Below are positions 2,751 to 36,571 of a stretch of DNA of 45,806 nucleotides, in pieces. The DNA is from Gluconobacter thailandicus F149-1 = NBRC 100600 (GTDB lineage: Bacteria; Pseudomonadota; Alphaproteobacteria; Acetobacterales; Acetobacteraceae): NCBI RefSeq assembly GCF_000964465.1, contig NZ_BANH01000001.1, positions 1 through 45,806 of the forward strand, given 5' to 3'. Made by a program: the position numbers and the translations under genes. Position 1 is the first letter of the stretch. Each line of letters opens with the position of its first letter. The notes beneath the pieces were generated by a model. It was given only the letters and a program-made list of their open reading frames with translations, was not told the DNA's origin and ran no database searches.

Positions 2751-2798
2751 AACAATGTTGCATTTGACGTAACGAAACGTGAAGGCCATCCTGTTGCC

Positions 2799-3395
2799 AT
2801 GATCCTGCTCATCGACAACTACGACAGCTTCACATTCAACATCGTGCATCATCTGGGTGCACTGGGTGTTGAGTGTGACGTACGGCGCAATGATGCCCTG
2901 AGTGTCGAGGAGGCTCTTGCTCTCAAGCCCTCCGCCATTGTGATTTCCCCTGGCCCCTGCGCACCCGATGGTGCAGGGATCTGCTGTGATTTGATCCGGG
3001 AAGCCGCGGGGAAAGTACCAGTCTTCGGTGTCTGCCTCGGCCATCAGGCGATCGGACAAGTTTTTGGCGCGAAAGTCGTCCGTGCCCCTGTTCCGATGCA
3101 CGGCAAGATCAGCGCGGTTGACCATGACGGCACGGGCGTTTTCGCAGGTCTCCCCAACCCTGTGAACGTTGTGCGCTATCATAGCCTGACGCTGGAGCCG
3201 GCGAGCATTCCGCCAGAACTGATCGTCAATGCGTCCACGAAGGACGGTATTATCATGGGCGTCCGCCACCGGGACCACGATGTGCATGGCGTTCAGTTCC
3301 ACCCGGAAAGCATCGCCTCGACAGCGGGCCGCGAACTGCTCGCGAATTTCCTGACGATCGCTGGCATTCCGCATAAAGCCGTAGAGACGGCATGA
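2799..3395 (+). CDS. trpG: Anthranilate synthase component II, glutamine amidotransferase
   Basis: This 198-residue class I glutamine amidotransferase supplies ammonia to TrpE. It begins with MILLIDNYDSFTFN, typical of TrpG/PabA. It has the nucleophile elbow GVCLGHQ with Cys79 and the HPES motif with His168 and Glu170, giving a complete triad. It is separate from TrpD, not fused as in E. coli. It follows trpE by 48 bases and overlaps trpD by ATGA. PabA-type dual use for folate synthesis cannot be excluded from sequence, but its position between trpE and trpD argues for TrpG. Confidence 0.95.
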   Translation: MILLIDNYDSFTFNIVHHLGALGVECDVRRNDALSVEEALALKPSAIVISPGPCAPDGAGICCDLIREAAGKVPVFGVCLGHQAIGQVFGAKVVRAPVPMHGKISAVDHDGTGVFAGLPNPVNVVRYHSLTLEPASIPPELIVNASTKDGIIMGVRHRDHDVHGVQFHPESIASTAGRELLANFLTIAGIPHKAVETA

Positions 3396-4483
3396 CGGCA
3401 GAAGCTGACTTTTCGGCCCTTCTGCGCCGCGTTGCTGATGGTGCCGTTCTGACTGCCGACGATGCCGAGAAAGCATTTTCGGCTATCATGGCAGGAGATG
3501 TGGAGCCTGCCCAACTCGCGGCCTTTCTCACGGCGCTCAAGATGCGCGGTGAAGCTGCTGATGAATTGACAGGGGCGGTGCAGGCCGTCCGCCGCTACAT
3601 GACGGTTCTGCCAGATGTTCCGGCAGATACGCTGGACGTCTGTGGAACGGGCGGGGACGGCCTTGGCACACTCAATGTTTCGACCGCCGTTGCTTTCGTT
3701 CTGGCGGGACTGGGCGTTTCAGTCGCCAAACATGGCAACCGCGCACTTTCTTCTCGGTCTGGCGCGACCGATGTTCTGGAAAAGCTTGGTGTTCCGCCGA
3801 TCGACGATCCTGCCTTCCAGAGCGAGCAGTTGCGGGACAATCACCTGGCGTTCCTTGCAGCACCGTTCCATCACCCAGCCATGCGTCACGCAGCTCCCGT
3901 CCGTAAAGCCTTGGGATTCCGAACGCTTTTCAATCTGCTTGGACCTCTTTGCAATCCAGCTCAGGTTCAACGTCAGCTTATTGGTGTTTTTGACGTTCGG
4001 TGGTGTGAGCCGGTCGCCCGGACCCTTGGCAGCCTTGGCAGCACGCATGTCTGGGCCATTCATGGTACGACGGACGAGGGCGGTAGCGATGAACTTACAC
4101 TAGCTGGCCCTGCTGAAATCGTAAGCCTTGAAAATGGAACGATCAGCCGGTTGTCCTTCGACCCTGATATGGCAGGCGTTACGTCAGCTCCCATTTCTGC
4201 CATCCGTGGCGGAGATTCCGATGCGAACGCACAGGCTTTGACCGCGCTTCTTGATGGAGCACGCGGACCTTACCGTGATACCGTTCTTTTGAATTCCGCA
4301 GCCGCGCTTCATGTGGCTGGACGCGGGAATGTCGTGCATAATGGCACGATTGACGCTGAGGCGTTCCGTAACAATATGGCACTGGCAGCCCGTTCCATTG
4401 ACGATGGGCACGCACGCATGGCTCTGACACGGGCGCGTAACGCCATGGCCTCCCTTACCAAGACAAACGCAGGACTATCATGA
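3392..4483 (+). CDS. trpD: Anthranilate phosphoribosyltransferase
   Basis: TrpD transfers phosphoribosyl from PRPP to anthranilate. The protein has 363 residues, slightly longer than the common ~340. It carries the glycine-rich PRPP loop CGTGGDGLGTLNVST, the KHGNRALSSRSGATDVLE motif, and AAPVRKALGFRTLFNLLGPL. It overlaps trpG (ATGA at 3392-3395) and trpC (ATGA at 4480-4483), so trpGDC is a coupled unit. Confidence 0.96.
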   Translation: MTAEADFSALLRRVADGAVLTADDAEKAFSAIMAGDVEPAQLAAFLTALKMRGEAADELTGAVQAVRRYMTVLPDVPADTLDVCGTGGDGLGTLNVSTAVAFVLAGLGVSVAKHGNRALSSRSGATDVLEKLGVPPIDDPAFQSEQLRDNHLAFLAAPFHHPAMRHAAPVRKALGFRTLFNLLGPLCNPAQVQRQLIGVFDVRWCEPVARTLGSLGSTHVWAIHGTTDEGGSDELTLAGPAEIVSLENGTISRLSFDPDMAGVTSAPISAIRGGDSDANAQALTALLDGARGPYRDTVLLNSAAALHVAGRGNVVHNGTIDAEAFRNNMALAARSIDDGHARMALTRARNAMASLTKTNAGLS

Positions 4484-5403
4484 CCTTCATGCATCAGCGA
4501 CCAGCGATGACCTATGCACCTGAAGGGGTAGAGCAGTTTCCTGACCCGGAAGTTCCGGAAACGACCACGCCGCCCATCAAGGACCCTTCCGTCGAAACAA
4601 CGGACCGGAGCGACGTTCTGGCCCGTATCTGCGCCCGCACCCGCGTGGACGTGGAGCAGCGATCCCAGATCATGTCGCTCAAGGACATTACGCTCCGGGC
4701 CCGTGAAGTCACGACGCCAACACGCGGCTTCGGGCAGGCTCTTCAGCATCTGACCGCGGACCGGCAGGTCGGGCTGATTGCCGAGATCAAAAAAGCCTCT
4801 CCGTCAGCAGGCGTCCTCCGCCCGACATATGATCCTGTTGGTATTGCCCAGGCCTATCAGGCAGCAGGTGCGACCTGCCTGTCCGTTCTGACGGAAGGGT
4901 CGTGTTTCCATGGCAGCACGGATGATATTCGTGCTGTTCGCGAAGCCTGCAGCCTGCCAATCCTACGCAAGGACTTCATTCTGGAGCCATGGCAGGTTCA
5001 TGAAAGCCGCCTGATCGGTGCGGATTGCATTCTGCTCATCATGGCCGCTCTCACGGAAACCCAAGCGTCCGAACTCATCGGTATCGCCCGTGGTCTGGAC
5101 ATGGATGTCCTTGTAGAAGTTCACGACGCCGACGAGCTGAATCGCGCGCTGGCTCTTGATACGTCGCTGATCGGCATCAACAACCGCAATCTTCGCACTT
5201 TGAAGACGGACATCCAGACCACTTTGAATCTGGCGCCGATGGTTCCACCAGACCGCCTTGTTGTCTCCGAAAGTGGCATCAAGACGCAGGACGACATGTT
5301 GAAGGTCGGTGAAGTTGGTGCAAGCGCCGTCCTCGTCGGTGAGAGTTTGCTTCGTGAAGATGATCCAGGAGCGGCGGCTCGCCGTCTCCTGGGCTTCAAC
5401 TGA
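4480..5403 (+). CDS. trpC: Indole-3-glycerol phosphate synthase
   Basis: TrpC closes the indole ring of CdRP to give indole-3-glycerol phosphate. It is a single-function protein of 307 residues, not fused to TrpF. The (beta/alpha)8 barrel motifs are clear: EIKKASPSAGVLRP, LRKDFILEPWQV, LVEVHDADEL, IGINNRNLRTL and VSESGI. The usual start of the family (LARICARTRVDVEQR here) is preceded by about 45 extra residues rich in Pro, Glu and Thr. The ATG at 4480 overlaps the trpD stop. In-frame ATGs at 4489 and 4507 would remove little, and no ATG, GTG or TTG lies nearer the conserved region. trpF, trpB and trpA are not in the window. Confidence 0.95.
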   Translation: MTFMHQRPAMTYAPEGVEQFPDPEVPETTTPPIKDPSVETTDRSDVLARICARTRVDVEQRSQIMSLKDITLRAREVTTPTRGFGQALQHLTADRQVGLIAEIKKASPSAGVLRPTYDPVGIAQAYQAAGATCLSVLTEGSCFHGSTDDIRAVREACSLPILRKDFILEPWQVHESRLIGADCILLIMAALTETQASELIGIARGLDMDVLVEVHDADELNRALALDTSLIGINNRNLRTLKTDIQTTLNLAPMVPPDRLVVSESGIKTQDDMLKVGEVGASAVLVGESLLREDDPGAAARRLLGFN

Positions 5404-5411
5404 CATTGGCT

Positions 5412-5457
5412 CCTGTTGAAGAGGTCGCCTGCGTGCATCTCTTCAACAGGCCGTTTT
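5412..5457 (+). terminator. Intrinsic terminator after trpC
   Basis: A perfect 12-base inverted repeat (CCTGTTGAAGAG at 5412-5423 and CTCTTCAACAGG at 5439-5450) encloses a 15-base loop and is followed by CCGTTTTCT. The stem starts 9 bases after the trpC stop. The T tract is short, so termination may be partial. It separates the trp unit from pdh. Confidence 0.75.
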
Positions 5458-5574
5458 CTATCAAGCTTCCGGACCCTGCTTTTCCTTTCGGAAATGTAAC
5501 TGGGGTCACTCTGGTCTTCCAGGCCGAGTATCGGTAAGAGCTTCCCCAGATTTGTGCATTTCCAGGAGACCGCC

Positions 5575-6579
5575 ATGGACGAGACAACGTCCGCTTCCAA
5601 CCGGAGCAACGGTCCGGCCCTTTCGCCGGAGACAATGAAGCGTGCCTACAAGGACATGCTGCTGGTCCGACGTTTTGAGGAAAAGGCCGGGCAGCTCTAC
5701 GGAATGGGGCTCATCGGAGGCTTCTGCCATCTGTATATCGGGCAGGAAGCCGTTGTGGTCGGCATCGGCCTGAACATGAAGCAGGGCGACAAATCTATCA
5801 CCTCATACCGTGATCATGGTCAGATGCTGGTTGCTGGCATGACGGCCCGCGGCGTAATGGCTGAACTGACGGGACGCTCCGGTGGCTATTCCCGCGGTAA
5901 GGGCGGCTCAATGCACATGTTCTCTCGTGAGAAAGAGTTCTACGGTGGCCATGGTATCGTGGGCGCGCAGGTTGCGCTCGGTACAGGGCTGGCCTTTGCC
6001 AACCATTATCGCGGTACGGATGAAGTCTCGATCGTCTATTTTGGCGAAGGTGCTTCTGCACAGGGACAGGTCTACGAGAGCTTCAATCTCGCCGCCCTGC
6101 ACAAACTTCCCTGCATTTATGTGATCGAGAACAACCGTTACGGCATGGGCACATCCATCGAGCGCGCATCTGCGTCCAAGGATCTGTCCCGCAATGCAGA
6201 GCCTTGGGGTATCCCGAGCCGCAAGGTTGATGGCATGGATGTATTTGCTGTGCACCAGGCTGCACAGGAGGCCATGGAGCATTGCCGCGCGGGCAAGGGA
6301 CCATTCCTTCTGGAAATGGAAACCTACCGCTACCGTGGACACTCCATGTCCGATCCCGCCAAGTACCGTCAGCGGACCGAAGTCGAAGAAATGCGCCGGA
6401 CGCGTGACCCTATCGAAAGCCTGAAGGCGGAAATGCTGCGCAACGGCATTGAAGAAGAAGCTTTCAAAGCTATTGAATCTGAAGTGAAAGCTGTCGTGGC
6501 GGACGCTGCTGAATTTGCACAGACTTGCCCGGAGCCGGATGCATCCGAACTCTGGACTGACATTCTGGTGGAGGCCTGA
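5575..6579 (+). CDS. pdhA: Pyruvate dehydrogenase E1 component, alpha subunit
   Basis: The E1-alpha subunit pairs with E1-beta to decarboxylate pyruvate with thiamine diphosphate. The protein has 334 residues. Family motifs include [53 protein letters not shown], and [15 protein letters not shown] with the regulatory-loop serines. The thiamine/Mg motif, normally GDG-x(24-27)-NN, reads GEG at residues 157-159, with NN at 186-187. The ATG at 5575 is chosen because CAGGAGA lies about 6 bases upstream; a GTG at 5554 is in frame but has no such site. First gene of a six-gene operon ending with ratA. Confidence 0.96.
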
Positions 6580-6584
6580 GTTCC

Positions 6585-7952
6585 ATGGCATCTCTGATTC
6601 TGATGCCGGCCCTGTCGCCGACCATGACCGAAGGTACGATTGCGCGCTGGCTCCGTCAGCCGGGCGAGACCGTAAAGTCCGGCGACGTGATCGCCGAAAT
6701 CGAGACCGACAAAGCCACGATGGAAGTCGAGGCTGTTGAAGACGGCGTATTAGGCAAGGTTCTGGTTCCCGAAGGCAGCGAAAGCGTTGCCGTCAACACA
6801 CCTATCGCCGTTCTGCTTGAAGAGGGTGAGGATGCGGATGCCGCAGAGAGCGTAACACGTTCCGCTGACCCGGCTGCTGACGCACCAGTCGCAATTGAAA
6901 CCCCATCCGCTCCTGCGATCGTTGAGGCTCCCGCCATCAAGCAGGCAGAAGAAGAAAAAGACTGGGGCGAGACAAAAAACATCACCGTTCGTGAAGCACT
7001 GCGCGATGCAATGGCTGCAGAACTCCGGCGTGATGAAGACGTGTTCCTGATGGGCGAAGAAGTCGCCCAGTATCAGGGTGCTTACAAGATCAGCCAGGGC
7101 CTGCTGGACGAATTTGGTGAAAAGCGCGTCATCGACATGCCCATCACCGAGCATGGTTTTACCGGCATGGCAGTCGGCGCAGCCCTGACGGGACTGAAGC
7201 CGATCGTTGAGTTCATGACCATGAACTTCTCCCTGCAAGCCATTGACCATATTATTAATTCCGCAGCCAAGACACTTTACATGTCTGGCGGCCAGATGGG
7301 CTGTCCGATCGTGTTCCGCGGCCCTAATGGCGCAGCAGCCCGTGTTGGTGCTCAACACTCTCAGTGCTTTGCAAGCTGGTATGCCCATATCCCAGGCCTG
7401 AAGGTAGTCGCTCCGTGGTCTGCTGCTGATGCGAAGGGTCTGTTGCGCGCGGCTATTCGTGATCCGAACCCGGTTGTGGTGCTGGAAAACGAGATCCTGT
7501 ACGGCCAGAAATTCCCATGCCCTACGGATGAAGACTTCATCCTGCCGATCGGGAAAGCCAAAATCGAGCGTGAAGGCAAAGACGTAACCCTGGTGGCGTT
7601 CTCCATCATGGTAGGCGTGGCTCTGGATGCTGCGGCCAAGCTGGCCGAGGAAGGTATTGACGCCGAAGTCATCAACCTGCGCACCCTGCGCCCGCTGGAT
7701 ACCGAGACCATCATCAAGAGCGTCAAGAAGACGAACCGGATTGTGTCCGTTGAGGAAGGCTGGCCTGTTGCAGGTATCGGTGCAGAAATCTGCACGGTTG
7801 CCGTTGAGCAGGCGTTCGACTGGCTGGATGCCCCCCCGGCACGTGTATGCGGTCTTGACCTGCCGCTGCCTTACGCATCCAATCTTGAAAAACTGGCACT
7901 TCCGAAACCCGAATGGGTTGTGGAAGCAGTCCGCAAGCAGTTCGGGGACTGA
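6585..7952 (+). CDS. pdhB: Pyruvate dehydrogenase E1 component, beta subunit, with N-terminal lipoyl domain
   Basis: The first ~80 residues are a complete lipoyl domain ([11 protein letters not shown], then [11 protein letters not shown] with the lipoylated Lys43). A linker rich in Ala, Pro and Glu follows (about 85-125), then the E1-beta transketolase-like region from residue ~130 ([52 protein letters not shown]). E1-beta proteins with a fused lipoyl domain are known in alphaproteobacteria; most other E1-beta proteins lack it. 455 residues. It starts 5 bases after pdhA and ends 6 bases before pdhC. The lipoyl-domain DNA is nearly identical to that of pdhC over a 44-base core. Confidence 0.96.
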
Positions 7953-7958
7953 CCGACA

Positions 7959-9191
7959 ATGGCAACCGATATCCTGATGCCGGCTCTGTCGCCGACAATG
8001 ACCGAGGGCAAACTGGCCCGCTGGCTCAAAAATGAAGGCGATACAGTTTCAGCCGGTGATGTGATCGCCGAAATCGAGACCGACAAGGCCACGATGGAAG
8101 TCGAAGCGGTGGACGAGGGCATACTCGGCCGCATTCTTGTTCAGGAAGGCGCGGAAGGCGTTGCGGTTAACACGCCAATCGCCATCCTTGTAGAGGAAGG
8201 CGAAGAGGTGCCAGTAGCGTCTTCCGGGCAGACGTCTGCTATCGCGGCTTCGGCCGCTGAGCCTGTTGCTGCTGCAAGTGCACCTGCGCCAAGCGCCAAA
8301 GCCGCCTCGAAAGAGGAGAGCAGTGAGCGTATTTTTGTCTCGCCGCTGGCAAAGCGTATGGCCAAAGAGCGGGGCATCGCTCTTGGCTCTCTGAACGGAA
8401 CAGGCCCGAATGGCCGTATTCTGAAACGGGACGTTGAGAAGGGCGGTAACGCTGCTCCAGCCGCACCGAAAGCTGCACCTGTAACGCCGGTTGCCGTTGA
8501 AGGTGACGTAAAGCGCGTTCCGAATTCCACGATGCGCAAGGTCATTGCGCGGCGTTTGACGGAATCGAAGACGCAGGTTCCGCATTTCTATGTCTCAGTG
8601 GACATCGAACTTGATGCTCTGCTCGCACTTCGCTCAAAGCTGAATGCGACCGCCGAGGAGAACAGCTTCAAGCTCTCGGTCAATGACATGATGATCAAGG
8701 CTGTCGGGCTGGCACTGAAAAAGGTACCGGGTCTGAACGTTCAGTTCACGGATTCCGAGACGCTGCATTTCGAGAATGTGGACATCTCAATGGCTGTATC
8801 CATCCCGGATGGCCTGATCACGCCGATCATCCGGAATGCGGACCAGAAGTCCCTGCGCGAAATCAGCCGTGAAGCCAAGGATCTGGCCAAGCGTGCGCGT
8901 GCGGGCAAGCTGAAGCCGGAAGAATTCCAGGGCGGTACGTTCTCCATTTCGAATATGGGAATGTTTGGCGTCCGGGATTTTGCCGCGATCATCAATCCGC
9001 CGCAGGCCGGAATTCTGGCCATTGCGTCCGGAGAGAAACGTGCCGTGGTTCGGGGAGACCAGCTTGCAATTGCAACTGTCATGACCGCGACACTTTCTGT
9101 TGATCATCGTGCCGTTGATGGCGCACTTGGGGCACAGTGGCTGAATGCCCTGCGCGATATCGTACAGAACCCTTACACTCTGGTGGTCTGA
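7959..9191 (+). CDS. pdhC: Dihydrolipoamide acetyltransferase (E2) of pyruvate dehydrogenase
   Basis: E2 forms the core of the complex and transfers acetyl groups to CoA. The 410 residues contain one lipoyl domain (Lys43 in [11 protein letters not shown]), an Ala/Pro linker, a peripheral-subunit-binding domain (VSPLAKRMAKERGI, then GTGPNGRILKRDV, about 125-162), and a catalytic chloramphenicol acetyltransferase-like domain. That domain ends with the active-site motif DHRAVDG near residue 380. A single lipoyl domain on E2 is complemented by the one on PdhB. It is encoded 6 bases after pdhB and 3 bases before lpd. Confidence 0.96.
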   Translation: MATDILMPALSPTMTEGKLARWLKNEGDTVSAGDVIAEIETDKATMEVEAVDEGILGRILVQEGAEGVAVNTPIAILVEEGEEVPVASSGQTSAIAASAAEPVAAASAPAPSAKAASKEESSERIFVSPLAKRMAKERGIALGSLNGTGPNGRILKRDVEKGGNAAPAAPKAAPVTPVAVEGDVKRVPNSTMRKVIARRLTESKTQVPHFYVSVDIELDALLALRSKLNATAEENSFKLSVNDMMIKAVGLALKKVPGLNVQFTDSETLHFENVDISMAVSIPDGLITPIIRNADQKSLREISREAKDLAKRARAGKLKPEEFQGGTFSISNMGMFGVRDFAAIINPPQAGILAIASGEKRAVVRGDQLAIATVMTATLSVDHRAVDGALGAQWLNALRDIVQNPYTLVV

Positions 9192-9194
9192 TCC

Positions 9195-10601
9195 ATGTCC
9201 GATACTTTCGATCTGATCGTTGTTGGTGGCGGTCCTGGCGGCTACGTTGCAGCGCTTCGGGCCAGCCAGCTTGGCATGAGCGTTGCCATCGTGGAGAGCA
9301 CGCATTTTGGTGGCGTCTGCCTCAACTGGGGCTGTATCCCGACCAAAGCGCTGCTGCGCTCCTCCGAAATTCATCATCTTTTGCATGATCTGAATACATT
9401 CGGCTTCTCGGCCGAGAACGTGTCCTTCGATCTGACCAAGATTGTGGCCAGATCCCGTGGCATTGCCCGCCGCATGGGCGGCGGCATTGCCCATCTGCTC
9501 AAGAAGGCCAAGGTCACGACCTTTGACGGTCGGGCGAAACTGGCTGGCCGGGCAGGGGAAGCCCACAAGGTTTCCATCACCAAGGATGGTGCCGAAGTGG
9601 CGGTCATCAAGTCGCCTAACGTCATTCTTGCTACCGGTGCACGCGGCCGTCAGCTTCCGGGTCTGGAGACAGATGGCAAGCTGATCTGGGGGGCACGCGA
9701 AGCGATGACCCCAACCGAACTGCCGAAGCGCCTGCTGGTCATCGGTTCTGGTGCCATCGGTATCGAATTTGCGTCCTTCTATCGCAACATGGGCAGCGAA
9801 GTAACGATTGCCGAAGTGGCGGACCGCATCCTGATCGCTGAAGATCCGGAAATCAGTGCAGCGGCCCGCAAGGCCTTCGAAAAGCAGGGGATGAAGATCA
9901 TCACCGGTGCGAAGGTTGGCCCGCTTCAGAAGGGTGAAAACGAGGTTTCCACCACCATTGAAAGTGCGTCCGGTACGATCGATCTGACTGTGGACCGCGT
10001 GATCTGCGCTGTCGGCATTGTCGGAAACGTTGAAGATCTCGGTCTGGAAGGGACCAAGGTTCAGGTTGATCGCACCCATATAGTTACGGATGGCTTCTGC
10101 CGCACGGCAGAACCAGGTATCTACGCTATCGGTGACGTTGCGGGCGCTCCATGGCTGGCCCATAAGGCAAGTCACGAGGGCATTCTCTGCGTTGAAAAGA
10201 TTGCTGGTCGTTCGCCGCAGCCTCTTCATGCACTGAACATTCCGGGCTGCACCTACTCCCGTCCGCAGATCGCTTCGGTTGGTCTGAGCGAGGAAAAGGC
10301 TATCGCTGCGGGGCACAAGGTTCGTGTTGGACGCTTCCCATTCATTGCCAACGGCAAAGCCGTGGCGATGGGTGAGACGGAAGGCATGGTCAAGACCGTG
10401 TTTGATGCCACAACCGGGGAGTTGCTGGGTGCTCACATGATCGGCGCGGAAGTTACGGAAATGATTCAGGGCTATGTCATTGCCCGGACAGGTGAACTGA
10501 CGGAAGCAGAACTGATCGAGACGGTTTTCCCGCATCCGACAATTTCCGAGACGATGCATGAAGCGACTCTGGCGGCCTTCGACGGTCCGCTCCATATCTG
10601 A
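9195..10601 (+). CDS. lpd: Dihydrolipoamide dehydrogenase (E3)
   Basis: E3 is an FAD flavoenzyme that reoxidises dihydrolipoamide and reduces NAD+. The 468 residues begin with the FAD-binding [12 protein letters not shown]. The redox disulfide is Cys42/Cys47 in [16 protein letters not shown]. The NAD-binding glycine motif is [11 protein letters not shown]. The catalytic dyad is His447/Glu452 in HPTISE. It has no lipoyl extension. Its place in the pdh operon suggests dedication to pyruvate dehydrogenase, though sharing with oxoglutarate dehydrogenase or glycine cleavage is possible. Confidence 0.97.
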
Positions 10602-10606
10602 GCACC

Positions 10607-11575
10607 ATGTCCCAGCGCATCACCATAGATCATCGTGAGATGTCCGCTCTCCGCCACCCGGAGAAGGCACATCGTCCCGACAACCCGATCCAGCGCAAAC
10701 CATCCTGGATTCGGGTAAAGGCGCCCAATCATCCCGTGTATCATGAGACACGGGCGCTGATGCGGGAGGCCAATCTGGTCACGGTCTGCGAGGAAGCAGC
10801 CTGCCCGAATATCGGGGAGTGCTGGTCCCAGCGTCACGCGACAATGATGATCATGGGCGAAATCTGCACACGGGCCTGTTCTTTCTGCAACGTGACCACT
10901 GGCCTGCCAAAAGCCCTGGATGCAGATGAACCACGACGCGTGGGAGAAGCCGTAGCAAAGCTCGGCCTCAAACATGTTGTCATCACATCTGTTGACCGTG
11001 ATGACCTTGCGGATGGCGGAGCACGCCATTTCGCACAGGTCATTCAGGCCATACGATCAGCGTCTCCGGAAACGACCATCGAGATCCTGACGCCTGATTT
11101 TCTTCGGAAACCGGGTGCACTTGAGATCGTGGTTGAAGCACGGCCAGACGTTTTCAATCACAATATCGAGACCGTGCCCCGTCTCTATCCCACAATCCGT
11201 CCCGGTGCGCGATACTATCAGTCATTGCGTCTACTGGACGGTGTGAAGAGGCTCGATCCATCCATTTTCACCAAGTCTGGCCTAATGCTTGGCCTGGGTG
11301 AAGAGAAGTTGGAAGTATGGCAGGTCATGGATGATTTCAGGGTCGCCGACGTCGATTTTCTGACGTTGGGACAGTACCTTCAGCCGAGCGTGAAGCATGC
11401 GGCGGTCGAAAAGTTTGTTACCCCTGAAGAGTTTGACGGCTATGCTGGTGCTGCCCGTTCAAAAGGATTTCTTCAGGTCAGCGCAAGCCCTCTGACACGA
11501 TCCTCCTATCACGCGGACAGCGATTTCGCGAAGCTCCAGGCTGCGCGGACCAGCCGTCTGAAAGAAAGTCTCTGA
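10607..11575 (+). CDS. lipA: Lipoyl synthase
   Basis: LipA is a radical-SAM enzyme that inserts two sulfurs into octanoyl groups on lipoyl domains. Both iron-sulfur clusters are visible: the auxiliary cluster [12 protein letters not shown] (Cys61, Cys66, Cys72) and the radical-SAM cluster CTRACSFC (Cys87, Cys91, Cys94). The C-terminal RSSYHAD serine motif is also present. 322 residues. It lies 5 bases after lpd. Placement in the pdh operon supplies the cofactor for the two lipoyl domains made by pdhB and pdhC. lipB is not in the window. Confidence 0.97.
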
Positions 11576-12057
11576 TGCCGACACATGCCGAGCAACGGTT
11601 GATCGCTTATACGCCGGAACAGCTTTTTGATCTGGTAGCAGATGTGGAGAAATATCCGCAGTTCCTGCCATGGTGTGTCAAGGCGACCATCAAGTCCCAG
11701 ACAGAGCAGGAACTTGTGGCAGAATTGACCATTGGGTTCGGTCCTTTTCGGGAAACCTTCACCAGCCGTGTCACACTTGAGCGTCCATCACGCATTAGAG
11801 TGCGCTACGAGAAGGGGCCTTTTCGGTATCTGAACAATGTCTGGACGTTCACGCCGGATCCGCGGGGTTGCCTTGTAGATTTCTTCGTGGACTTCGAGTT
11901 TCGATCCCGTCTGCTGCAAAATGCAATGGGTGTGGTGTTCAATGAGGGTGTTCGCCTGATGGTCTCCGCTTTCATCAAGCGGGCCCGGGACATTTATGGC
12001 GTGCAGACTGCTCAGAAGCCGTACACCCCAACCCGGATTATCCTGATCGAAAGATAA
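11575..12057 (+). CDS. COQ10/RatA-family START-domain protein
   Basis: A 160-residue single-domain START/SRPBCC protein: AYTPEQLFDLVADVEKYPQFLPWCV at the N-terminus, a central beta sheet, and a long C-terminal helix (NEGVRLMVSAFIKRARDIYG). This is the family of mitochondrial COQ10, which binds ubiquinone, and of bacterial RatA, described as a ribosome-association toxin. In alphaproteobacteria a ubiquinone-related role seems more likely, but that is an inference. The start overlaps the lipA stop as TGATG, making it the last gene of the pdh-lipA operon. Confidence 0.9.
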   Translation: MPTHAEQRLIAYTPEQLFDLVADVEKYPQFLPWCVKATIKSQTEQELVAELTIGFGPFRETFTSRVTLERPSRIRVRYEKGPFRYLNNVWTFTPDPRGCLVDFFVDFEFRSRLLQNAMGVVFNEGVRLMVSAFIKRARDIYGVQTAQKPYTPTRIILIER

Positions 12058-28902: not shown

Positions 28903-29070
28903 AGATTGCACTGTAAGCACGTTCCGCGCCCCTGATCATAGAGACTTTGAAGGATAGCAGCGTAGCAATGTGTCCGCCTGCAACATGTTGTAAAAAATAA
29001 GACACGAAAATTGTGGTTTTAATTTCTGACAGTGTTCGTCTGTTCCAAAAGACGCCTTGAAGGAATTTCT
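28903..29070. promoter_or_regulatory. Divergent intergenic region argE / glycosyltransferase
   Basis: 168 bases, notably more AT-rich than the flanks (TGTAAAAAATAAGACACG near 28988). It holds the promoters of both divergent genes. GAAGGAA, 5 bases before the GTG at 29071, is a convincing ribosome site. No clean promoter hexamers could be assigned. Confidence 0.45.
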
Positions 29071-30276
29071 GTGAAGCGCAGTACGGGCCTATCGTTTTTT
29101 CACAAGGTGTGGCGAAAATTTCCCCAGCAACAGAGACGCTGCTTCTTTGCCTGGGCTACAGCAGGCATAACGCCCGGCGTCCGATCAAGTTACCCCCGAC
29201 ATGCGTCCGGCGTTATTGTTGCGGGCGAGTTCAGCCGAGGCTCCGGCATGGGGGAAGGTGCACGCCTTATGGTGGCGGCCCTTCGCAAGCTCGGCATCCT
29301 GTGTGCCACATGGGACATTGATACATGCCGCCTGGACGGAGAGGCTGTCGGTCCGGGCGCACCACTGATCATGCATGTCAACGCGCCCATGCTTCCCGCT
29401 GCATTGCTCAGAATGCCGCGTACGCTCAAAATCGAACGGAAAGTCATCGGCTACTGGGCCTGGGAACTCCCGGTTGTGCCAGACACATGGAGACATGCAC
29501 GACGGCATGTTCATGAAATCTGGGCGCCGTCCCGCTTTACTGCTGATGCTCTGATCCCCTTGGGACGTCCCGTACGCGTCGTGGAACACCCCGTCGGACT
29601 GGCAGACCAGACCCCATCCGCGCGCGATCGTACGTCTTTCGGACTCCCAGAAAAGGCTGTCATTGTTCTGGTCTCTTTCAATCTGGCATCGAGCATGGTG
29701 CGCAAAAACCCGATCGATACGATTCTGGCATTCCGCGAAGCGTTTGGTGACAGCGAGGACCGCCTTTTGCTTCTGAAGATCGGCCATACGGAAAATTATC
29801 CCGAAGACATGGTTGCCATCCGGGACACCGTTGGAAATGCCACCAATATCCGCATAGATATGCACCATTACAGCGGTGCCGATCGACTGGCCCTGATGGG
29901 CTGCTGCGACATCGTGCTGTCCCTGCATCGCAGCGAGGGATTTGGCCTTGTTGTGGCCGAGGCGATGGCTCTGGGGCGATGTGTGATCGCGACCAACTGG
30001 TCTGCCACAGCCGAATTCATGGACAGCACCTGCGGGCTCCCTGTTGCTTATAGCCTCGTGCCTGCTCATGACCCGAGAGGCGTTCTGGAAATGCCCCAGA
30101 CATGCTGGGCGCTTCCGGACAGGCACGCAGCCGTGCAGGTCCTTCGTCTGGCAGCAGACAATCCTGATCTTCGGAAACGGTTGGGCAAAGCCGGTCAGGA
30201 CCGCATTGCAGAACATCTTCACGGGGCGAGCCTTCTGAACGCCATTAACGCCGCAGGAGTTGAAACGTGGCGGTAA
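29071..30276 (+). CDS. GT4-family glycosyltransferase
   Basis: 401 residues. A Rossmann-type C-terminal half has the GT4 retaining motif SEGFGLVVAEAMALGRCVIAT, an E-x7-E pattern. The N-terminal half has VIAGEFSRGSGMGEGARLMV and YWAWELPVVPDTWRH, typical of enzymes acting on surface glycans. The GTG at 29071 is chosen because GAAGGAATTTCT precedes it; a GTG at 29032 lacks a site. Donor and acceptor unknown. The 3' end overlaps the next glycosyltransferase by 10 bases. Confidence 0.88.
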   Translation: MKRSTGLSFFHKVWRKFPQQQRRCFFAWATAGITPGVRSSYPRHASGVIVAGEFSRGSGMGEGARLMVAALRKLGILCATWDIDTCRLDGEAVGPGAPLIMHVNAPMLPAALLRMPRTLKIERKVIGYWAWELPVVPDTWRHARRHVHEIWAPSRFTADALIPLGRPVRVVEHPVGLADQTPSARDRTSFGLPEKAVIVLVSFNLASSMVRKNPIDTILAFREAFGDSEDRLLLLKIGHTENYPEDMVAIRDTVGNATNIRIDMHHYSGADRLALMGCCDIVLSLHRSEGFGLVVAEAMALGRCVIATNWSATAEFMDSTCGLPVAYSLVPAHDPRGVLEMPQTCWALPDRHAAVQVLRLAADNPDLRKRLGKAGQDRIAEHLHGASLLNAINAAGVETWR

Positions 30277-31334
30277 AGACTGTCCTCGTCTGGCAATGGG
30301 GAAAAAGAGGGGCAGGGCCGCGCATAGCGGTTGATCTCGCGAATGGGCTGGCATCCTTACCGGATGTCTGTGTACGGCTTTCGCTTTCGGAAGAGGCTGA
30401 AATTCTTCACAGCCACCACGCACCGCAAGATGCTCTGGTGTTCAAAACCTACAAGTCTGCCCTGGGGCTGTTTGGCAGGTTTCTACAGGCTCCGCTGATC
30501 ATCACGCAGCTGTTCCTGTCGATGCTCCGTAACAGGCCAGACGTCGCAATCTGTGCAATGCCGGCCCCGCTTGATGTTCTGATGGCCCATGCCCTGCGGC
30601 GGGCAGGCGTAAAGGTCGTGACAATTGTTCATGATGCCCGAGCACATCCGGGAGACGGCTATCCGTTTCAGATGCTCCTGCAGAAAGCACTCATCAGTCA
30701 GTCATCCCTTCTGGTGACGTTCAGCCAGCACGTCGCCAATGTGTTGTCAGGAGACGCCATCTGTCGGGGGAAATCGGTTCTTTCTCTTTCGCATCCGCCT
30801 TTTGTAGGGACGGAAGCGCCGCCACCTTTCAGCCATGGAGGGAAACCAAGACTGCTGATGTTCGGGCGACTGCTCCCCTACAAGGGGCTCGATCTACTGG
30901 CAGATGCCCTTCCTCAGCTGGAATTTGCGATCGATTGCAGGATCATCGGCAAAGGGCCGCAAAGCCCGGAACTGCTTCGCCTTTCCGAAATACGGGATGT
31001 AACCGTCGAAAACAGATGGGTGCCGGAAGACGAACTGTCGCGGCTGATCGCCTGGGCAGATGTGCTGCTCCTGCCTTACCGGGAAGCATCCCAGAGCGGT
31101 GTAGGCGCAATGGCAGCCGCAGGGGGGCGATATGTGGTGGCAACCACTGTCGGCGGACTGTCTGAGCAGTTTTCCGCCAATCCTCAGGCTGTGCTCTGCG
31201 AGCCAGACGCACGCTCAATCGCGATAGCCATCATCCAGCTTCTGAACTCCCCGCCACCCATTGCTCCGGCTCCTGACAGCGCCGGGGCATGGCAGGAACT
31301 GGGGCAGAAAATCCTGAATGCAGCAAGCAATTAG
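30267..31334 (+). CDS. GT4-family glycosyltransferase
   Basis: 355 residues, GT-B fold. KPRLLMFGRLLPYKGLDLLADAL opens the nucleotide-sugar domain, and PYREASQSGVGAMAAAGGRYVVAT is the variant donor loop found in some GT4 enzymes (no second Glu of E-x7-E). The N-terminal domain has VVTIVHDARAHPGDGYPFQ. Starts with GTG at 30267, AGGAG spaced 7 bases upstream, within the previous gene. It converges on and overlaps the DEAD-box helicase stop by 4 bases. Confidence 0.88.
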   Translation: MAVKTVLVWQWGKRGAGPRIAVDLANGLASLPDVCVRLSLSEEAEILHSHHAPQDALVFKTYKSALGLFGRFLQAPLIITQLFLSMLRNRPDVAICAMPAPLDVLMAHALRRAGVKVVTIVHDARAHPGDGYPFQMLLQKALISQSSLLVTFSQHVANVLSGDAICRGKSVLSLSHPPFVGTEAPPPFSHGGKPRLLMFGRLLPYKGLDLLADALPQLEFAIDCRIIGKGPQSPELLRLSEIRDVTVENRWVPEDELSRLIAWADVLLLPYREASQSGVGAMAAAGGRYVVATTVGGLSEQFSANPQAVLCEPDARSIAIAIIQLLNSPPPIAPAPDSAGAWQELGQKILNAASN

Positions 31335-32506
31335 GTATCGAGAGCGTCTTCCGTCGCAATGCGGATCCGGTAACCAATATGCTTCTCAATATCGCGAAGG
31401 GACAGACGCTCATCGATATTGATGAGCGAGAAAGCAGCCCCTTTCTTACCCGCACGAGCCGTCCGTCCAATGCGGTGCACGTAAGCTTCGGGTGTCTCAG
31501 GCATATCCATGTTGATCACGAGATCCACATCGGAAATATCCAGCCCGCGGGACGCAATGTCCGTCGTAACCAGAACCGGCACGCGTCCCTGACGGAACAG
31601 ATCAAGCGCCTTGTTCCGCGCGCCCTGAGTACGGTCACCATGCAGAGTCTCAGACCTGATATTGTGCTTGCGCAGGATCCTCGCCAGCAAATCGACATTT
31701 GCCTTCGTACGGGTGAACACCATACTGCGGCCGGGAAAGCGTTGCAGGATACGTGCAACAGTCTCAGGCTTGTCTTCCTTTTCCACGAACATCGCACGCT
31801 GGCGGATCTTCTTGGGCGTAAAAGTCTCCGCAGCCACTTCGACGCGAACAGGATCACGCGTCACACGCTTGGCCAGATCCATAACTGGCTCAGGGAGCGT
31901 AGCGGAGCAGAAAACCGTCTGGGGCGGAACGTCCGGGAAGTAAGGCGTCAGAGCAGTCATGCTCTCCGAAAAATCTTCATCCAGAAGACGGTCAGCCTCA
32001 TCCAGAACAAGATATGTCAGATATTCAAGAACCAGTTCGCCCTGCGTGACGAGGTCCAGCAAACGACCATGCGTTGCGACAACGATATCAACGCCATCGA
32101 CAATGGAACGGACCTGCTGCTCACGTGATGTTCCGCCACAGATCACACGTGTCTTCAGGGAGAGGCGACGGCCGAGCTGGCGGCAGACCGCAGCTGTCTG
32201 GGCAGCCAGTTCACGGGTCGGCTCCAGAATCAGGGCACGCGGGCCATGGACACTCTCACCCTTGGACAGGATCTGAAGCATGGGGAGAACAAAAGCAGCC
32301 GTTTTGCCGCTTCCCGTCTGGGATGCGACAAGAACATCCCGACCCTTCAGCAAAGGCGGAATTGCCTGAACCTGAATCGTGCTGGGCCGCTTGTGTCCCA
32401 CCTGTTCCAGCGTAGCCAGAAGAGGAGAGATCAGACCAAATGCGGCAAAGCCGTTAGGAGCGTCGGTCGAAGGTGTGTCAGTCGAGGGTGTTTCAGGCAT
32501 CGTCAT
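31331..32506 (-). CDS. DEAD-box ATP-dependent RNA helicase (RhlE-like)
   Basis: 391 residues: Q motif (GFAAFGLISP...RPSTIQVQAIP), Walker A ASQTGSGKTAAF, PTRELAAQ, DEAD box VLDEADRLLD, motif III SATLPEP, and the C-terminal domain with TDIASRGLDI and HRIGRTARAG. Function is RNA unwinding in ribosome assembly or mRNA decay. The short C-terminus (ending RIATEDALDT) lacks the basic tail common in RhlE and DeaD. The ATG ending at 32506 with AAGAAG upstream is preferred over longer frames. It is inserted in opposite orientation between glycan genes. Confidence 0.93.
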   Translation of the reverse strand: MTMPETPSTDTPSTDAPNGFAAFGLISPLLATLEQVGHKRPSTIQVQAIPPLLKGRDVLVASQTGSGKTAAFVLPMLQILSKGESVHGPRALILEPTRELAAQTAAVCRQLGRRLSLKTRVICGGTSREQQVRSIVDGVDIVVATHGRLLDLVTQGELVLEYLTYLVLDEADRLLDEDFSESMTALTPYFPDVPPQTVFCSATLPEPVMDLAKRVTRDPVRVEVAAETFTPKKIRQRAMFVEKEDKPETVARILQRFPGRSMVFTRTKANVDLLARILRKHNIRSETLHGDRTQGARNKALDLFRQGRVPVLVTTDIASRGLDISDVDLVINMDMPETPEAYVHRIGRTARAGKKGAAFSLINIDERLSLRDIEKHIGYRIRIATEDALDT

Positions 32507-32567
32507 ATGCGCTTCTTGCCAAATTTCTTCCGTTTCGGGAAATAGCTCTTTTTTAAGGAGGCCCGCC

Positions 32568-33500
32568 ATGAAGGCGACAATCATCGCAGAAGACTTCGCC
32601 GGCATGCGAGCACAGGGGGCAGGCCTTGCCGAAAAGGCTGGTCTTGAGTGGGAGTTCCGCCCCGTCCTGATCCGCAAACCCTGGAACCATTTTCCTGCCC
32701 GCTACTGGCCGTCTCCTCTAAAGCGCATCGCGCCAATCAGCATTTCGCCCGACAGCCGGCTCATCATCAGCATTGGCGGAACGGGCGGGGTTGCCGGCGC
32801 GGCAGTTGCCAGACGGGAAGGGCTACCGGTCGTCCAGATCCAGAACCCCAGAACAGCACTGTCAAAGTTCGATCTCGTGATCGCAAATACCCATGATGGC
32901 ATCACCGGCGAGAATGTTTTGATTTCTCGCAATGCGCTGCATCCCGTAACGCCGCAGAAACTGGATGTCGCACGCGCCACGTGGGAAGGCCGCCTGAAAC
33001 AGGATGACAGACCCTTGCTGTCCATCCTGATCGGCGGAACGAATGGACGTTTTTCTCTTGGAGCCGCCGAAGCAGCAGAAATGGCTGATGGACTGATCGC
33101 TTTTGCCAGCCGCAATGGTATGCAGGCGGTGCTGACGCCATCCCGCAGGACGGATGCCGCCGCGCTTGCTGTCCTGAAGGAAAAGCTGATCCCGGCCGGA
33201 ATACGGATTCTTGAAGGGCAGGGCAGCGATAACCCTTATCTCGGGATGCTGGCCTGTGCGGACGTCATTGCGGTCACGACAGATAGTGTTTCGATGATTT
33301 CGGAAGCTGCGGCCACGACCGCACCGGTCATGATCCTGCCGCTTCCCGGAAAGTCCACCCGGATTGGCAGGTTTGTCGAAACCCTTCAGGACGCCGGGCG
33401 TATCCGGCCCTTCAGCCTCGACCTTGAACCCTGGTCCGTCCACCCGCTTGACGACACCCCTACTGCGGCGAGAGAAATGCGCCAACGACTGAAGCTCTGA
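32568..33500 (+). CDS. ELM1/DUF1022-family protein
   Basis: 310 residues resembling bacterial homologues of plant mitochondrial-fission ELM1. Motifs: KPWNHFPARYWP, SIGGTGGVAGAAVARREGLPVVQIQNPR, HDGITGENVLISRNALHPVT, SILIGGTNGRFSLG, and TTDSVSMISEAAATTAPVMILPL. The layout is GT-B-like, and a glycosyltransferase-type role in the envelope is possible but unproven. A strong ribosome site AAGGAGG sits 6 bases before the ATG. Divergent from the helicase; the next gene begins 11 bases downstream. Confidence 0.85.
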   Translation: MKATIIAEDFAGMRAQGAGLAEKAGLEWEFRPVLIRKPWNHFPARYWPSPLKRIAPISISPDSRLIISIGGTGGVAGAAVARREGLPVVQIQNPRTALSKFDLVIANTHDGITGENVLISRNALHPVTPQKLDVARATWEGRLKQDDRPLLSILIGGTNGRFSLGAAEAAEMADGLIAFASRNGMQAVLTPSRRTDAAALAVLKEKLIPAGIRILEGQGSDNPYLGMLACADVIAVTTDSVSMISEAAATTAPVMILPLPGKSTRIGRFVETLQDAGRIRPFSLDLEPWSVHPLDDTPTAAREMRQRLKL

Positions 33501-33511
33501 AAGGGCCCTCT

Positions 33512-35386
33512 ATGCTCGATATCCGCACGTTCGGTCCACAGGGTGGCAATGTGCTCTACAAGGCGCTGGCCCACCCGCTTGCCGCCGAAGCGCTGACGCG
33601 TATGGAGCAGGACTTCGCCGGGCAGAGTATCGCTCTTTATGATCCGGAAGATACGGTCCGGACGCTGGTGGCCCTTTATCCCGGCCTGCGCCCCTCCGTC
33701 GTTCTGGTTCACGATACGGAACAGGTCGGCCAGCCGGACGGGTTTGGCGGTGAGCGGAAAGCCCTCGTGGACCTGCCACATGTGGATGCGGACATTATCC
33801 TTGCGCTGTCTTTCGACGACGCAAAAATGCGGGGCCGCCTAGCGTCGCTTCTAAACGGTCGTGACCTTTATACCCTCGCTCCCGCACGCCTGCCGGACGA
33901 CATGATCGTTCGTGGCCGGCCATATCTCGACAAGCTCAATTTCGCGACAAATTTCGCATTTTTCCGCGATGACGACCGCTTTTCCACGCGGATCGTGACA
34001 GCAAACTACTGGTCCAATTATGGGACACAGAACCTGCGATACTGGCTGCGTCTCTATGACGGAACAGGTCAGATCATCGCCCAGTGGGAACAGCCGGTTG
34101 AACATGCAGGCGCTGGCATCACCATCGACAGTGCGGATGTCCGCAAGCGCTTCGGTTTGCCTGCTTTCATGGGGCAGCTATTCATTCACGTCATCGGTGC
34201 CCGCGGACATGACGTCGTGAAATATGCGCTCGACATGTGGGGCAAGAACGGCGATCCGAGCCTCTCCGTCACACATGATGCCAACGCCTGGCCATCCGTG
34301 CGGTATGCGACACTTCCTGCTCCCGAAGCCGATGAAACCCTGACGGTCTGGGTTCAGAACAGCCACGCCACGACCATTCCGGCGGGTGCCATTACGTTCA
34401 ATCCAATGGGCGTGGACGATCATCGGAGCGTAGATCATGCGATCGGGCCATTTGAGACAGTGGCCGTCAATGTCGGAGCCCTTTTCCCGGATCTGGCTTG
34501 GCCATCCCAGCTTGAAATGCGTTCAGGCCGTCATCTGGTACGGCCTCGCTATGAAATTGAGCAGCGTGGCCGGACGCGTATTGCTCATCTGAACGTTGAG
34601 CGGGACAATATTCGCCCAGACCCGGCTATCCGGAACTTCGCCCCATCGCTGGGCCGGGGATTCCTTCTACCATTCCCCATTCTGGACCCGGCAAAGTTCG
34701 AGAGCTTCGTTCAACCCAACCCAATGTCCGAAGCTCTGGAAACACTGCCTGTCCGGCTGGATATTTTCGACGAAACCGGTCAGCCCGTCGGCTCGCATTT
34801 CCTCGGCAATCTACCCCGCGATCATTCTACGGCGATTGCCCTTCATGACCTGACCGATCGTCCAGGCCACGCAGATCTTGTCTATGATTTCCGTGATGGC
34901 GGGGAGGCTGACGGCTGGCTTCACGCCCTGATGCGCTATCGCAACCGCAATACGGATCATGCCGCCGAAACCAGCTTTGGCGCCCACATCTTCAACACAC
35001 TAATGACGTGGCGTTCCGAGCCACAGTCCTATTCCGGGCCACCGCCGGGCCTGACGACCCGACTGTTCCTCAAGCTCGGCCATGATGCACTGCGGAGTTT
35101 CTGCTGCCTGATTCATCCAGCCTCCATCGAAGGCACAAGCCCATCCGAGACGGTATTGCTGCTCTATGCCGCAGATGGGCATCTCATCGCTGAGACCACC
35201 ATTCACATCCAGCCATCAGGCTCCTTCATGGTGCGTCCACACGAACTTTTCGAAGGCGCGCATCTGGAGCAGGCCGGTGTTGGCGGATATGTTCTGATCC
35301 GCGATCTGACGTGCAGATTGTTCGGCTATCACGGTCTCGAAAACGACGAGGGCGGCTTCTCCCTCGATCACATGTTCGGGTTCTGA
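33512..35386 (+). CDS. Uncharacterised 624-residue protein with repeated beta modules
   Basis: No family is recognised. Residues ~10-115 alternate beta/alpha and look Rossmann-like (QSIALYDPEDTVRTLV, then PSVVLVHDT, DADIILALSFDD). From ~164 on, four stretches share a pattern of a strand with (D/A)xxG, a Pro/charged turn, then a phi-x-phi strand: about 164-248 (YWLRLYDGTGQII), 280-350 (TVWVQNSHATTIPAG), 412-468 (VRLDIFDETGQPV) and 547-611 (LLLYAADGHLIAE). There is no signal peptide or membrane segment, so it is probably cytoplasmic. It is 11 bases after the ELM1 gene, thus probably cotranscribed, and its end overlaps the convergent acyltransferase by 19 bases. Confidence 0.85.
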   Translation: MLDIRTFGPQGGNVLYKALAHPLAAEALTRMEQDFAGQSIALYDPEDTVRTLVALYPGLRPSVVLVHDTEQVGQPDGFGGERKALVDLPHVDADIILALSFDDAKMRGRLASLLNGRDLYTLAPARLPDDMIVRGRPYLDKLNFATNFAFFRDDDRFSTRIVTANYWSNYGTQNLRYWLRLYDGTGQIIAQWEQPVEHAGAGITIDSADVRKRFGLPAFMGQLFIHVIGARGHDVVKYALDMWGKNGDPSLSVTHDANAWPSVRYATLPAPEADETLTVWVQNSHATTIPAGAITFNPMGVDDHRSVDHAIGPFETVAVNVGALFPDLAWPSQLEMRSGRHLVRPRYEIEQRGRTRIAHLNVERDNIRPDPAIRNFAPSLGRGFLLPFPILDPAKFESFVQPNPMSEALETLPVRLDIFDETGQPVGSHFLGNLPRDHSTAIALHDLTDRPGHADLVYDFRDGGEADGWLHALMRYRNRNTDHAAETSFGAHIFNTLMTWRSEPQSYSGPPPGLTTRLFLKLGHDALRSFCCLIHPASIEGTSPSETVLLLYAADGHLIAETTIHIQPSGSFMVRPHELFEGAHLEQAGVGGYVLIRDLTCRLFGYHGLENDEGGFSLDHMFGF

Positions 35387-36492
35387 ACCAGCACCGTCCG
35401 CCGGAACCGGGAGGCCACTTCCCGGTCCAGCAGGAAGGCAACCGGGCGGGAGAAGAAACGGGACACGACTTCTCCCAGCCCCCAGATCAGCACCAGACAG
35501 ATCGGATAGACGATCCAGCCCATGCTTTGTGGCCAATGGTTGTGTTTCCAGATCCGCACAGCGGCCATGACAACGAACATGTGGGTCAGATAGATTTCAT
35601 AGGACAACTGCCCTATCCGGCGGACCCACCAGCTTCCTGAGCCTCCTTCAAAAGACCGCCAGCCGCAGGCCAGAACCAGCATGGCGATGCCGGCGTAGAA
35701 GATGGCGATCAGACCATTCGGCAGCAGGTGCCACAAGGACATCGGGCCCCCCATCTCCGCCAACATCATCAGTAAGCCGACAGCCCCCATGACAACCGGC
35801 CAGTGCCCTCGAGGCCGATAGTTGGCAGCGACGATTGCCATGAGCACACCCATTGCAATGGTTCCGACGCCAGTCAACGTCGCCTGTTCTCGCCAGATTT
35901 CGTTACCATGCAATGTTGCACGGTAGATCGGCGCGGTAATGGCGAGAGCAACAAGGAGCCCCACCCGAATGCGACTGTTCAGGCGACAGAAGAACGGGAA
36001 GAACAGATAGAACAACTCTTCAATCGAGAGCGACCAAAGCACGGTCCAGCCTGCCACGCTCCAGCCATGCCGTGCCTGCCAGACATTAAAGTACAGACCG
36101 AACGCAGCCATTGCCGCACCGGAAAAGGTCTGACCCGGCTTAACGAAGCGATAGTCCTCGAAACCGATATAATCAAGCAGCCCCAACACTGTGACCAGCG
36201 CCACAAGGCATGGCAGAATACGTGCGGCTCGATGAGCAATAAAGGGCAGGGGCTGGATCTGATCCAGCGACCCAAATCTCTGAATGACGCGCGATGCAAT
36301 AAGGAAGCCCGACAGCACAAAAAAGATGCTGACAGCCTCACCACCATTATAATTCATGCCGACCAAAAGCCAGTGCGGCAGAACATTCCCTAGTACCGTA
36401 TGAGCAAGGGGAATACGGATCCCGAGATGGTTGCCAAGCACGAGAAGGATTGCAGCACCGCGCATACAATCCAGAGCCGCATTCCGTTTCAT
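35368..36492 (-). CDS. Membrane acyltransferase (Acyltransferase 3 / OafA-YrhL family)
   Basis: 374 residues with about ten membrane helices. The family signature is at the N-terminus: RNAALDCMRGAAILLVLGNHLG with the conserved His, then FFVLSGFLIASR and YLFFPFF. Such proteins O-acylate lipopolysaccharide, peptidoglycan or exopolysaccharide sugars across the membrane. The ATG ending at 36492 has AGGGG six bases upstream; the ATG two codons earlier abuts it. Context (glycosyltransferases, ELM1) fits modification of a surface glycan; the substrate is unknown. Confidence 0.92.
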   Translation of the reverse strand: MKRNAALDCMRGAAILLVLGNHLGIRIPLAHTVLGNVLPHWLLVGMNYNGGEAVSIFFVLSGFLIASRVIQRFGSLDQIQPLPFIAHRAARILPCLVALVTVLGLLDYIGFEDYRFVKPGQTFSGAAMAAFGLYFNVWQARHGWSVAGWTVLWSLSIEELFYLFFPFFCRLNSRIRVGLLVALAITAPIYRATLHGNEIWREQATLTGVGTIAMGVLMAIVAANYRPRGHWPVVMGAVGLLMMLAEMGGPMSLWHLLPNGLIAIFYAGIAMLVLACGWRSFEGGSGSWWVRRIGQLSYEIYLTHMFVVMAAVRIWKHNHWPQSMGWIVYPICLVLIWGLGEVVSRFFSRPVAFLLDREVASRFRRTVLVQNPNM

Positions 36493-36571
36493 TGCCATCC
36501 CCTGTCAGACAAAGTGTTTCTGAAGACGCAATGAGTTCAAAGAAAGGCGAGGGGATGGCGAAAAAAGCGTC

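Follow-up and report, generated by a model that had tools for sequence, protein, structure and literature searches.

An unnamed protein with modules of predicted ASRAH fold encoded beside a KdoT-like ELM1 gene in Gluconobacter thailandicus and other Alphaproteobacteria

Sugar or small-molecule binding has been proposed for the ASRAH superfamily from context and structure (PMC2739507), and several of its members combine more than one module. In tetrads with four modules per chain, mostly from photosynthetic bacteria (Roseiflexus and Chloroflexus, for example), the secreted protein also carries a peptidoglycan amidase, while actinobacterial dyads are secreted lipoproteins of two modules linked to a glycosyltransferase gene (PMC2739507). 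U624, the protein of 624 amino acids analyzed here, resembles the former in its module number but shows neither an amidase nor an evident signal peptide; it shares with the latter the link to a glycosyltransferase gene but belongs to another phylum. The closest solved family is that of TM1070 and ASRT (PF07100), whose fold is predicted for modules 1 and 2 of U624, with the differences that the U624 chain has a Rossmann-like domain followed by four modules and that no sequence similarity is found at the profile level.

The gene preceding U624 has a described relative of its own. An ELM1-like protein of Acinetobacter baumannii is reported by VanOtterloo, Voss and Trent to be KdoT, a CMP-Kdo transferase with Kdo2-lipid IVA as acceptor; its activity is said there to depend on an SRRT motif and to be sufficient alone in vitro, and a Rickettsia homologue is described as complementing it in part (PMC12856342). 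Five Acinetobacter outer-core proteins had earlier been placed in the same family, PF06258, their function being given at that time as unassigned (PMC10327509). Both the PF06258 domain and the SRRT motif are present in the ELM1 protein of the window, that is, of the 45,806 nucleotides of Gluconobacter thailandicus F149-1 = NBRC 100600 (contig NZ_BANH01000001.1) that were analyzed. The counterpart of KdoT is the neighbor of U624 and not U624 itself, and the activity of the window ELM1 is putative.

Conservation and spread of the U624 gene

The U624 gene extends over positions 33512..35386 on the + strand, with an ATG start codon 11 bp past the ELM1 stop. Twenty-one relatives distributed over the class, which share 39-60% identity with the window protein, align along its length, and 92 of the 624 positions are invariant in the resulting 22 diverse members, which establishes U624 as a real gene and not a chance frame. 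A larger set of 104 sequences, obtained by reducing the window protein and 126 matches to distinct sequences, contains 140 positions that are at least 97% identical; since many of these are close Acetobacteraceae, conservation was recounted on the 22 diverse rows. The first alignment comprised the window and 24 of 49 loci picked for spread, with L030 and L046 omitted because their match length is not a multiple of three.

These 49 distinct loci were retrieved by a search of genome contigs, the closest named relatives being Gluconobacter proteins (97% for G. frateurii). The genome of the strain itself holds one copy. Within the same family, U624 occurs in 210 of 397 genomes, representing 67 of 102 genera; the other 187 gave no match, and several among the 20 of these that were listed are 4.5-6 Mb in size. 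Across the class, it was found in 86 of 385 genomes drawn, mostly as full-length matches. Relatives in two pieces were seen at G557:C55 and G509:C8, one G557 piece containing a TGA, as a result of decay or assembly error.

The preliminary description of this DNA had recognized no family for the protein, and that statement holds across Pfam, NCBIfam, PHROGs, PADLOC and PDB sequences. Pfam and NCBIfam yielded no credible match, and no family in either was matched by more than two of the 22 members even at E values up to 1; PHROGs and PADLOC gave no match, and a PDB sequence search returned nothing usable. PF07100 in particular matched neither U624 at E up to 0.1 nor the 22 members at E up to 1, and no PF07100 protein was found in the strain's own genome.

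Domain architecture and module-end histidines

The full-length AF2 model of U624 (pLDDT 83.4, pTM 0.86) begins with an alpha/beta region, in agreement with the Rossmann-like N-terminal part described earlier. This domain covers residues 1 to about 142 (33512..33937, +), in which K17, H21, P22 and D44 are invariant among the 22 diverse members. Each of the four following modules is modeled as eight strands, s1 to s8, with a short helix after s5, a count that takes short bridges as strands for s4 of module 2, s5 of module 3 and s8 of module 4. Module 1 (residues 145-260; 33944..34291, +) carries Asn165 close to where strand 2 ends and is closed by His255 on strand 8; module 2 (residues 256-375; 34277..34636, +) has Asn283 and His359 at the ends of the same two strands. 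The same strand order is seen in module 3 (residues about 380-495; 34649..34996, +), from AF2 secondary structure and a weak profile match to modules 4 and 1, with His492 two residues past strand 8. A highly conserved linker of low model confidence (residues 494-514; 34991..35053, +; pLDDT below 50) leads to module 4 (residues 515-624; 35054..35383, +), which is delimited by the AF2 model, profile comparison and conservation, and in which strand 8 is modeled as a very short one, with His620 lying within this last strand.

Modules 1 and 2, each folded alone, match the same solved protein, and the predicted structure of both contains the TM1070-type beta-sandwich that defines the ASRAH superfamily. 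On these models, at least two of the four modules have an identifiable fold, that of ASRT/TM1070. Modules 3 and 4 show a TM1070-like strand order in the full-length model only, with a weak profile link to module 1, and may share the fold. In one of the single-module fold searches, ASRT entries (7.3-6.9) score level with carbohydrate-binding modules (6.6) and only 1nc7 stands clear, a tie that counts against an ASRAH-based reading. So does the comparison of the module profiles with ASRT, which reveals no link (E 0.14-0.48, against 0.20-0.88 for reversed controls); the ASRT profile was built from eight of 11 loci, L136, L137 and L139 having failed the motif filter, and a second draw added no sequence. 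Individual ASRAH traits are distributed unevenly. None of the strand 2 sequences of U624 contains SHEshChhN, the ligand signature of ASRT. The asparagine at the end of strand 2 is found as N165 in module 1 (99% of the 104 sequences) and N283 in module 2 (100%), with no conserved equivalent in modules 3 and 4. The tryptophan at the start of strand 1 has a possible equivalent in W260 (97%), which precedes strand 1 of module 2 by a few residues, and no tryptophan occurs on strand 1 of the other three modules.

By analogy, sugar binding of the ASRAH type is proposed for U624. De Souza et al. suggest that intracellular ASRAH versions are sugar sensors acting through protein contact, and the predicted fold of the modules would suit a metabolite sensor with a sugar or sugar nucleotide as ligand, which would adjust ELM1 or its pathway by contact. 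We consider this improbable: no regulator domain was found in U624 with Pfam, the invariance seems to exceed the needs of a tuner, and contact with ELM1 is putative.

The four beta-modules of the preliminary description are borne out by the predicted structure, provided that the bridges are read as strands, while the sequence signal for a repeat is weak. Profile-profile comparison gave E values of 6e-4 for modules 3 and 4, 7e-4 for modules 1 and 4 and 4e-3 for modules 1 and 3, against 0.19, 0.13 and 0.12 for the respective reversed-profile controls and a background of 0.013-0.026 for unrelated pairs (0.026 for the N-domain with module 3, 0.013 for module 1 with reversed module 2). Modules 1, 3 and 4 thus repeat weakly in self-alignment. 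Module 2 is not linked by sequence, its scores with modules 1 and 4 being no better than control and that with module 3 reaching E 0.046; it joins the set by its fold match to the same solved protein as module 1. An apparent score of 2.6e-5 for modules 1 and 2 is void, as the slices overlapped by seven residues. The (D/A)xxG motif said to recur in the segments is present as DGTG in module 1, DETG in module 3 and AADG in module 4, module 2 offering only NPMG.

An independent sign of the four-fold repeat is a conserved histidine at or near the end of the last strand of each module (H255, H359, H492 and H620), which is present in 99-100% of the 104 sequences and invariant in the 22 diverse members. 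The strand limits were fixed after these histidines had been noticed, and a scan of 19 residue types over the 16 ends of eight strands served as correction. The module-end histidine is the only coincidence shared by all four modules in that scan. On the 104-sequence track, any four-out-of-four coincidence at a strand end arises by chance in eight of 2000 rotations and eight of 2000 shuffles, and on the 22-member track in none of 2000 rotations.

The density of 92 invariant positions in 624 is more like that of an active site than that of a plain binding module. U624 could accordingly be an inner-core enzyme, its Rossmann-like domain holding a nucleotide or sugar nucleotide and its pseudo-four-fold body carrying an active site of conserved His, Arg, Tyr and Asp. 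The invariant residues, retained in 21 other members only 39-60% identical to the window protein, include K17, H21, D44, H233, H255-D256, R344, R346, H359, H471, H492, C601-R602 and H620, with a histidine closing strand 8 in each module. Substrate loops could be formed by two stretches, 257-264 and 494-514, that are conserved yet modeled with low confidence. Yet U624 matches no enzyme family, the nearest fold among solved structures belongs to a presumed binding protein, and the N-domain has no specific fold match. The enzymatic explanation, although the main rival of the one preferred below, appears rather unlikely.

Gene neighborhood and co-occurrence

The ELM1 gene (PF06258) encodes a KdoT-like candidate glycosyltransferase with the SRRT motif, which is found in 114 of 119 ELM1-like ORFs of the loci examined. 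It occupies 32568..33500 (+; Pfam E 1.7e-85 for 32562-33497). The listed GTG start at 32379 is likely wrong, since a good ribosome-binding sequence, aaggagg, precedes the ATG at 32568. The strain's genome also encodes WaaA (PF04413, E 7.2e-57), which makes an acceptor for the candidate CMP-Kdo transfer plausible. A DEAD-box helicase gene (31334-32677, -; Pfam E 6.3e-46) diverges from ELM1, its true start being probably below 32568. A + strand ORF of 279 amino acids between the glycosyltransferase genes and ELM1 (31289-32128) was rejected as a neighbor gene because it is antisense to this helicase. Farther away, the + strand of the window at 115-12054 carries genes for a PPIase, anthranilate synthase and further tryptophan-pathway-like proteins, pyruvate-dehydrogenase-type E1/E2/E3, a lipoyl-synthase-like radical SAM protein and a polyketide-cyclase-like lipid protein.

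The tight link to ELM1 noted at the outset proves strong. ELM1 lies upstream of U624 on the same strand in 49 of 49 relatives, at no more than 170 bp in 48 of them (L046 shows only a partial U624 match), and keeps this place while other neighbors change. Other parts of the glycan setting are less constant. Two GT4-type glycosyltransferase genes (29032..30276 and 30267..31334, both +; PF13692/PF00534) have same-strand equivalents upstream in 23 of the 49 relatives. The link to an acyltransferase does not stand: the convergent acyltransferase 3 family gene (35368..36498, -; PF01757), which shares 19 bp with the end of U624, has a homologue in the flanks of only nine of 49 relatives, two of them more than 1 kb off, some flanks being short.

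In the class-wide draw, 79 U624 rows were retained, excluding three own-family rows, pieces of G509, G546, G557 and G727, and the second row of G517; 18 of them have no listed ELM1 row, which leaves 61 carriers. Of these, 49 have ELM1 no more than 6 kb upstream in the same orientation, the gap being 600-1000 bp in 29. The gap is filled by a 2OG-Fe(II) oxygenase gene in all 14 cases examined among the 29. Such a gene is found in 23 of 98 U624 loci, representing 20 genomes (for example at 8436-9053 of L124), and is absent from the window and its 49 relatives (L001-L050). The oxygenase is a candidate sugar hydroxylase. The 2OG-Fe(II) oxygenase KdoO converts Kdo to Ko. Ko is reported from Granulibacter and Acetobacter pasteurianus, and Kdo from other Acetobacteraceae, in PMC8036547, whose references name a Kdo hydroxylase. 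Three U624-adjacent oxygenases were scanned and all contain PF13640, while none matches Kdo_hydroxy (PF11004); the connection with Ko is a hint only, as they fall outside that family. A Kdo_hydroxy search of the strain's own genome gave no match, but neither did any of its controls, which makes the result uninformative.

Conserved gene order offers another explanation, namely that U624 is unrelated to LPS and owes its place to an old arrangement running from carA-greA to trxB. The class-wide locus is otherwise one of housekeeping genes, so the position of U624 could be inherited: CarA, GreA, thioredoxin reductase and a LysR regulator surround the ELM1/U624 pair in L124, and among 20 distant loci they recur as blast clusters (CarA six, GreA nine, thioredoxin reductase eight, LysR four). 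A gene of 1085 amino acids between CarA and GreA is presumably CarB. Three observations make this explanation unlikely. Adjacency to ELM1 persists in the 49 relatives despite changing neighbors. ELM1 is still present in the 12 of 61 genomes where it is not within 6 kb upstream (on different contigs in nine, on the same contig but distant in three), although some of these 12 may have a nearer copy, as genomes with several ELM1 genes such as G599 were judged by listed rows only. Lastly, a single U624 carrier of 86 is without ELM1, G620, which is 70% complete.

The remaining 85 carriers, counted by eye and including U624 fragments, contrast with 229 of 299 non-carriers that have ELM1 (Fisher 7e-8, shared ancestry ignored). 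WaaA is present in 63 of 66 carriers versus 208 of 256 others in a 322-genome draw (Fisher 0.004, shared ancestry ignored), a count in which G056 is left out and G575, G620 and G700 are scored as lacking WaaA and may be outside the draw. In G727, all that is left of U624 is a stretch that matches profile positions 543-627 and has one stop, and an intact-looking ELM1 ORF is found at 8051-9097 of L128 (G727:C18:20000-39000); U624 can thus be lost with ELM1 retained.

A possible place in inner-core assembly

The explanation we prefer, tentatively and at somewhat less than even chances, is that U624 and the KdoT-like ELM1 belong to one pathway, in which U624 binds a core sugar and serves its transfer or a following step. 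The protein would be a cytosolic one and would join the Rossmann-like domain to a covalent tetrad of ASRAH-fold beta-sandwich modules. The ligand of these modules may be a sugar of the octulosonic-acid type or the growing inner core of LPS, which they could hold or present for transfer by ELM1 or for subsequent modification. No signal peptide was seen by eye at the N-terminus, which makes a surface scaffold, as once suggested, unlikely. The suggested role in a surface polymer retains its glycan setting and is narrowed to the LPS core, given that an ELM1-like protein is now reported as a Kdo transferase (PMC12856342).

Gene conservation, the repeated histidine and the linkage and co-occurrence with ELM1 are observed, and the fold of modules 1 and 2 is modeled; the cytosolic location, the fold of modules 3 and 4, sugar binding, a role in the LPS pathway and any contact between U624 and the glycosyltransferase are inferred. 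Against this preferred explanation, KdoT is described as working alone in vitro, so that Kdo transfer needs no U624-like partner, and ELM1 is common in genomes devoid of U624, as the 229 of 299 indicate. A fuller version, which seems doubtful, would make U624 an alphaproteobacterial factor of the LPS inner core and a fourth ASRAH family: its four sandwiches, fused behind the Rossmann-like domain and each contributing one invariant histidine, would form a pseudo-tetramer within a single chain that serves as a dedicated core-binding enzyme or chaperone. Its partners in building a non-enterobacterial inner core would be a KdoT-like transferase and, in numerous genomes, a 2OG oxygenase.

The fold of the modules is already known; a tetrad behind a Rossmann-like domain would add a new architecture, and this combination, its distribution across the class, the recurring histidine and the association with ELM1 were not found in the literature searched, which held mostly papers outside subscription. 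If the assignment is true, the ASRAH superfamily gains a new domain architecture, in an unnamed family carried by roughly half of the genomes sampled from its bacterial family and by a fifth of the class sample. Kdo transfer by the ELM1 gene family was, according to PMC12856342, reported only in 2025. As its gene travels with a relative of a core-building enzyme, U624 may be an unrecognized partner in the assembly of the outer-membrane sugar core, and its pairing with ELM1 makes alphaproteobacterial inner-core assembly directly testable.
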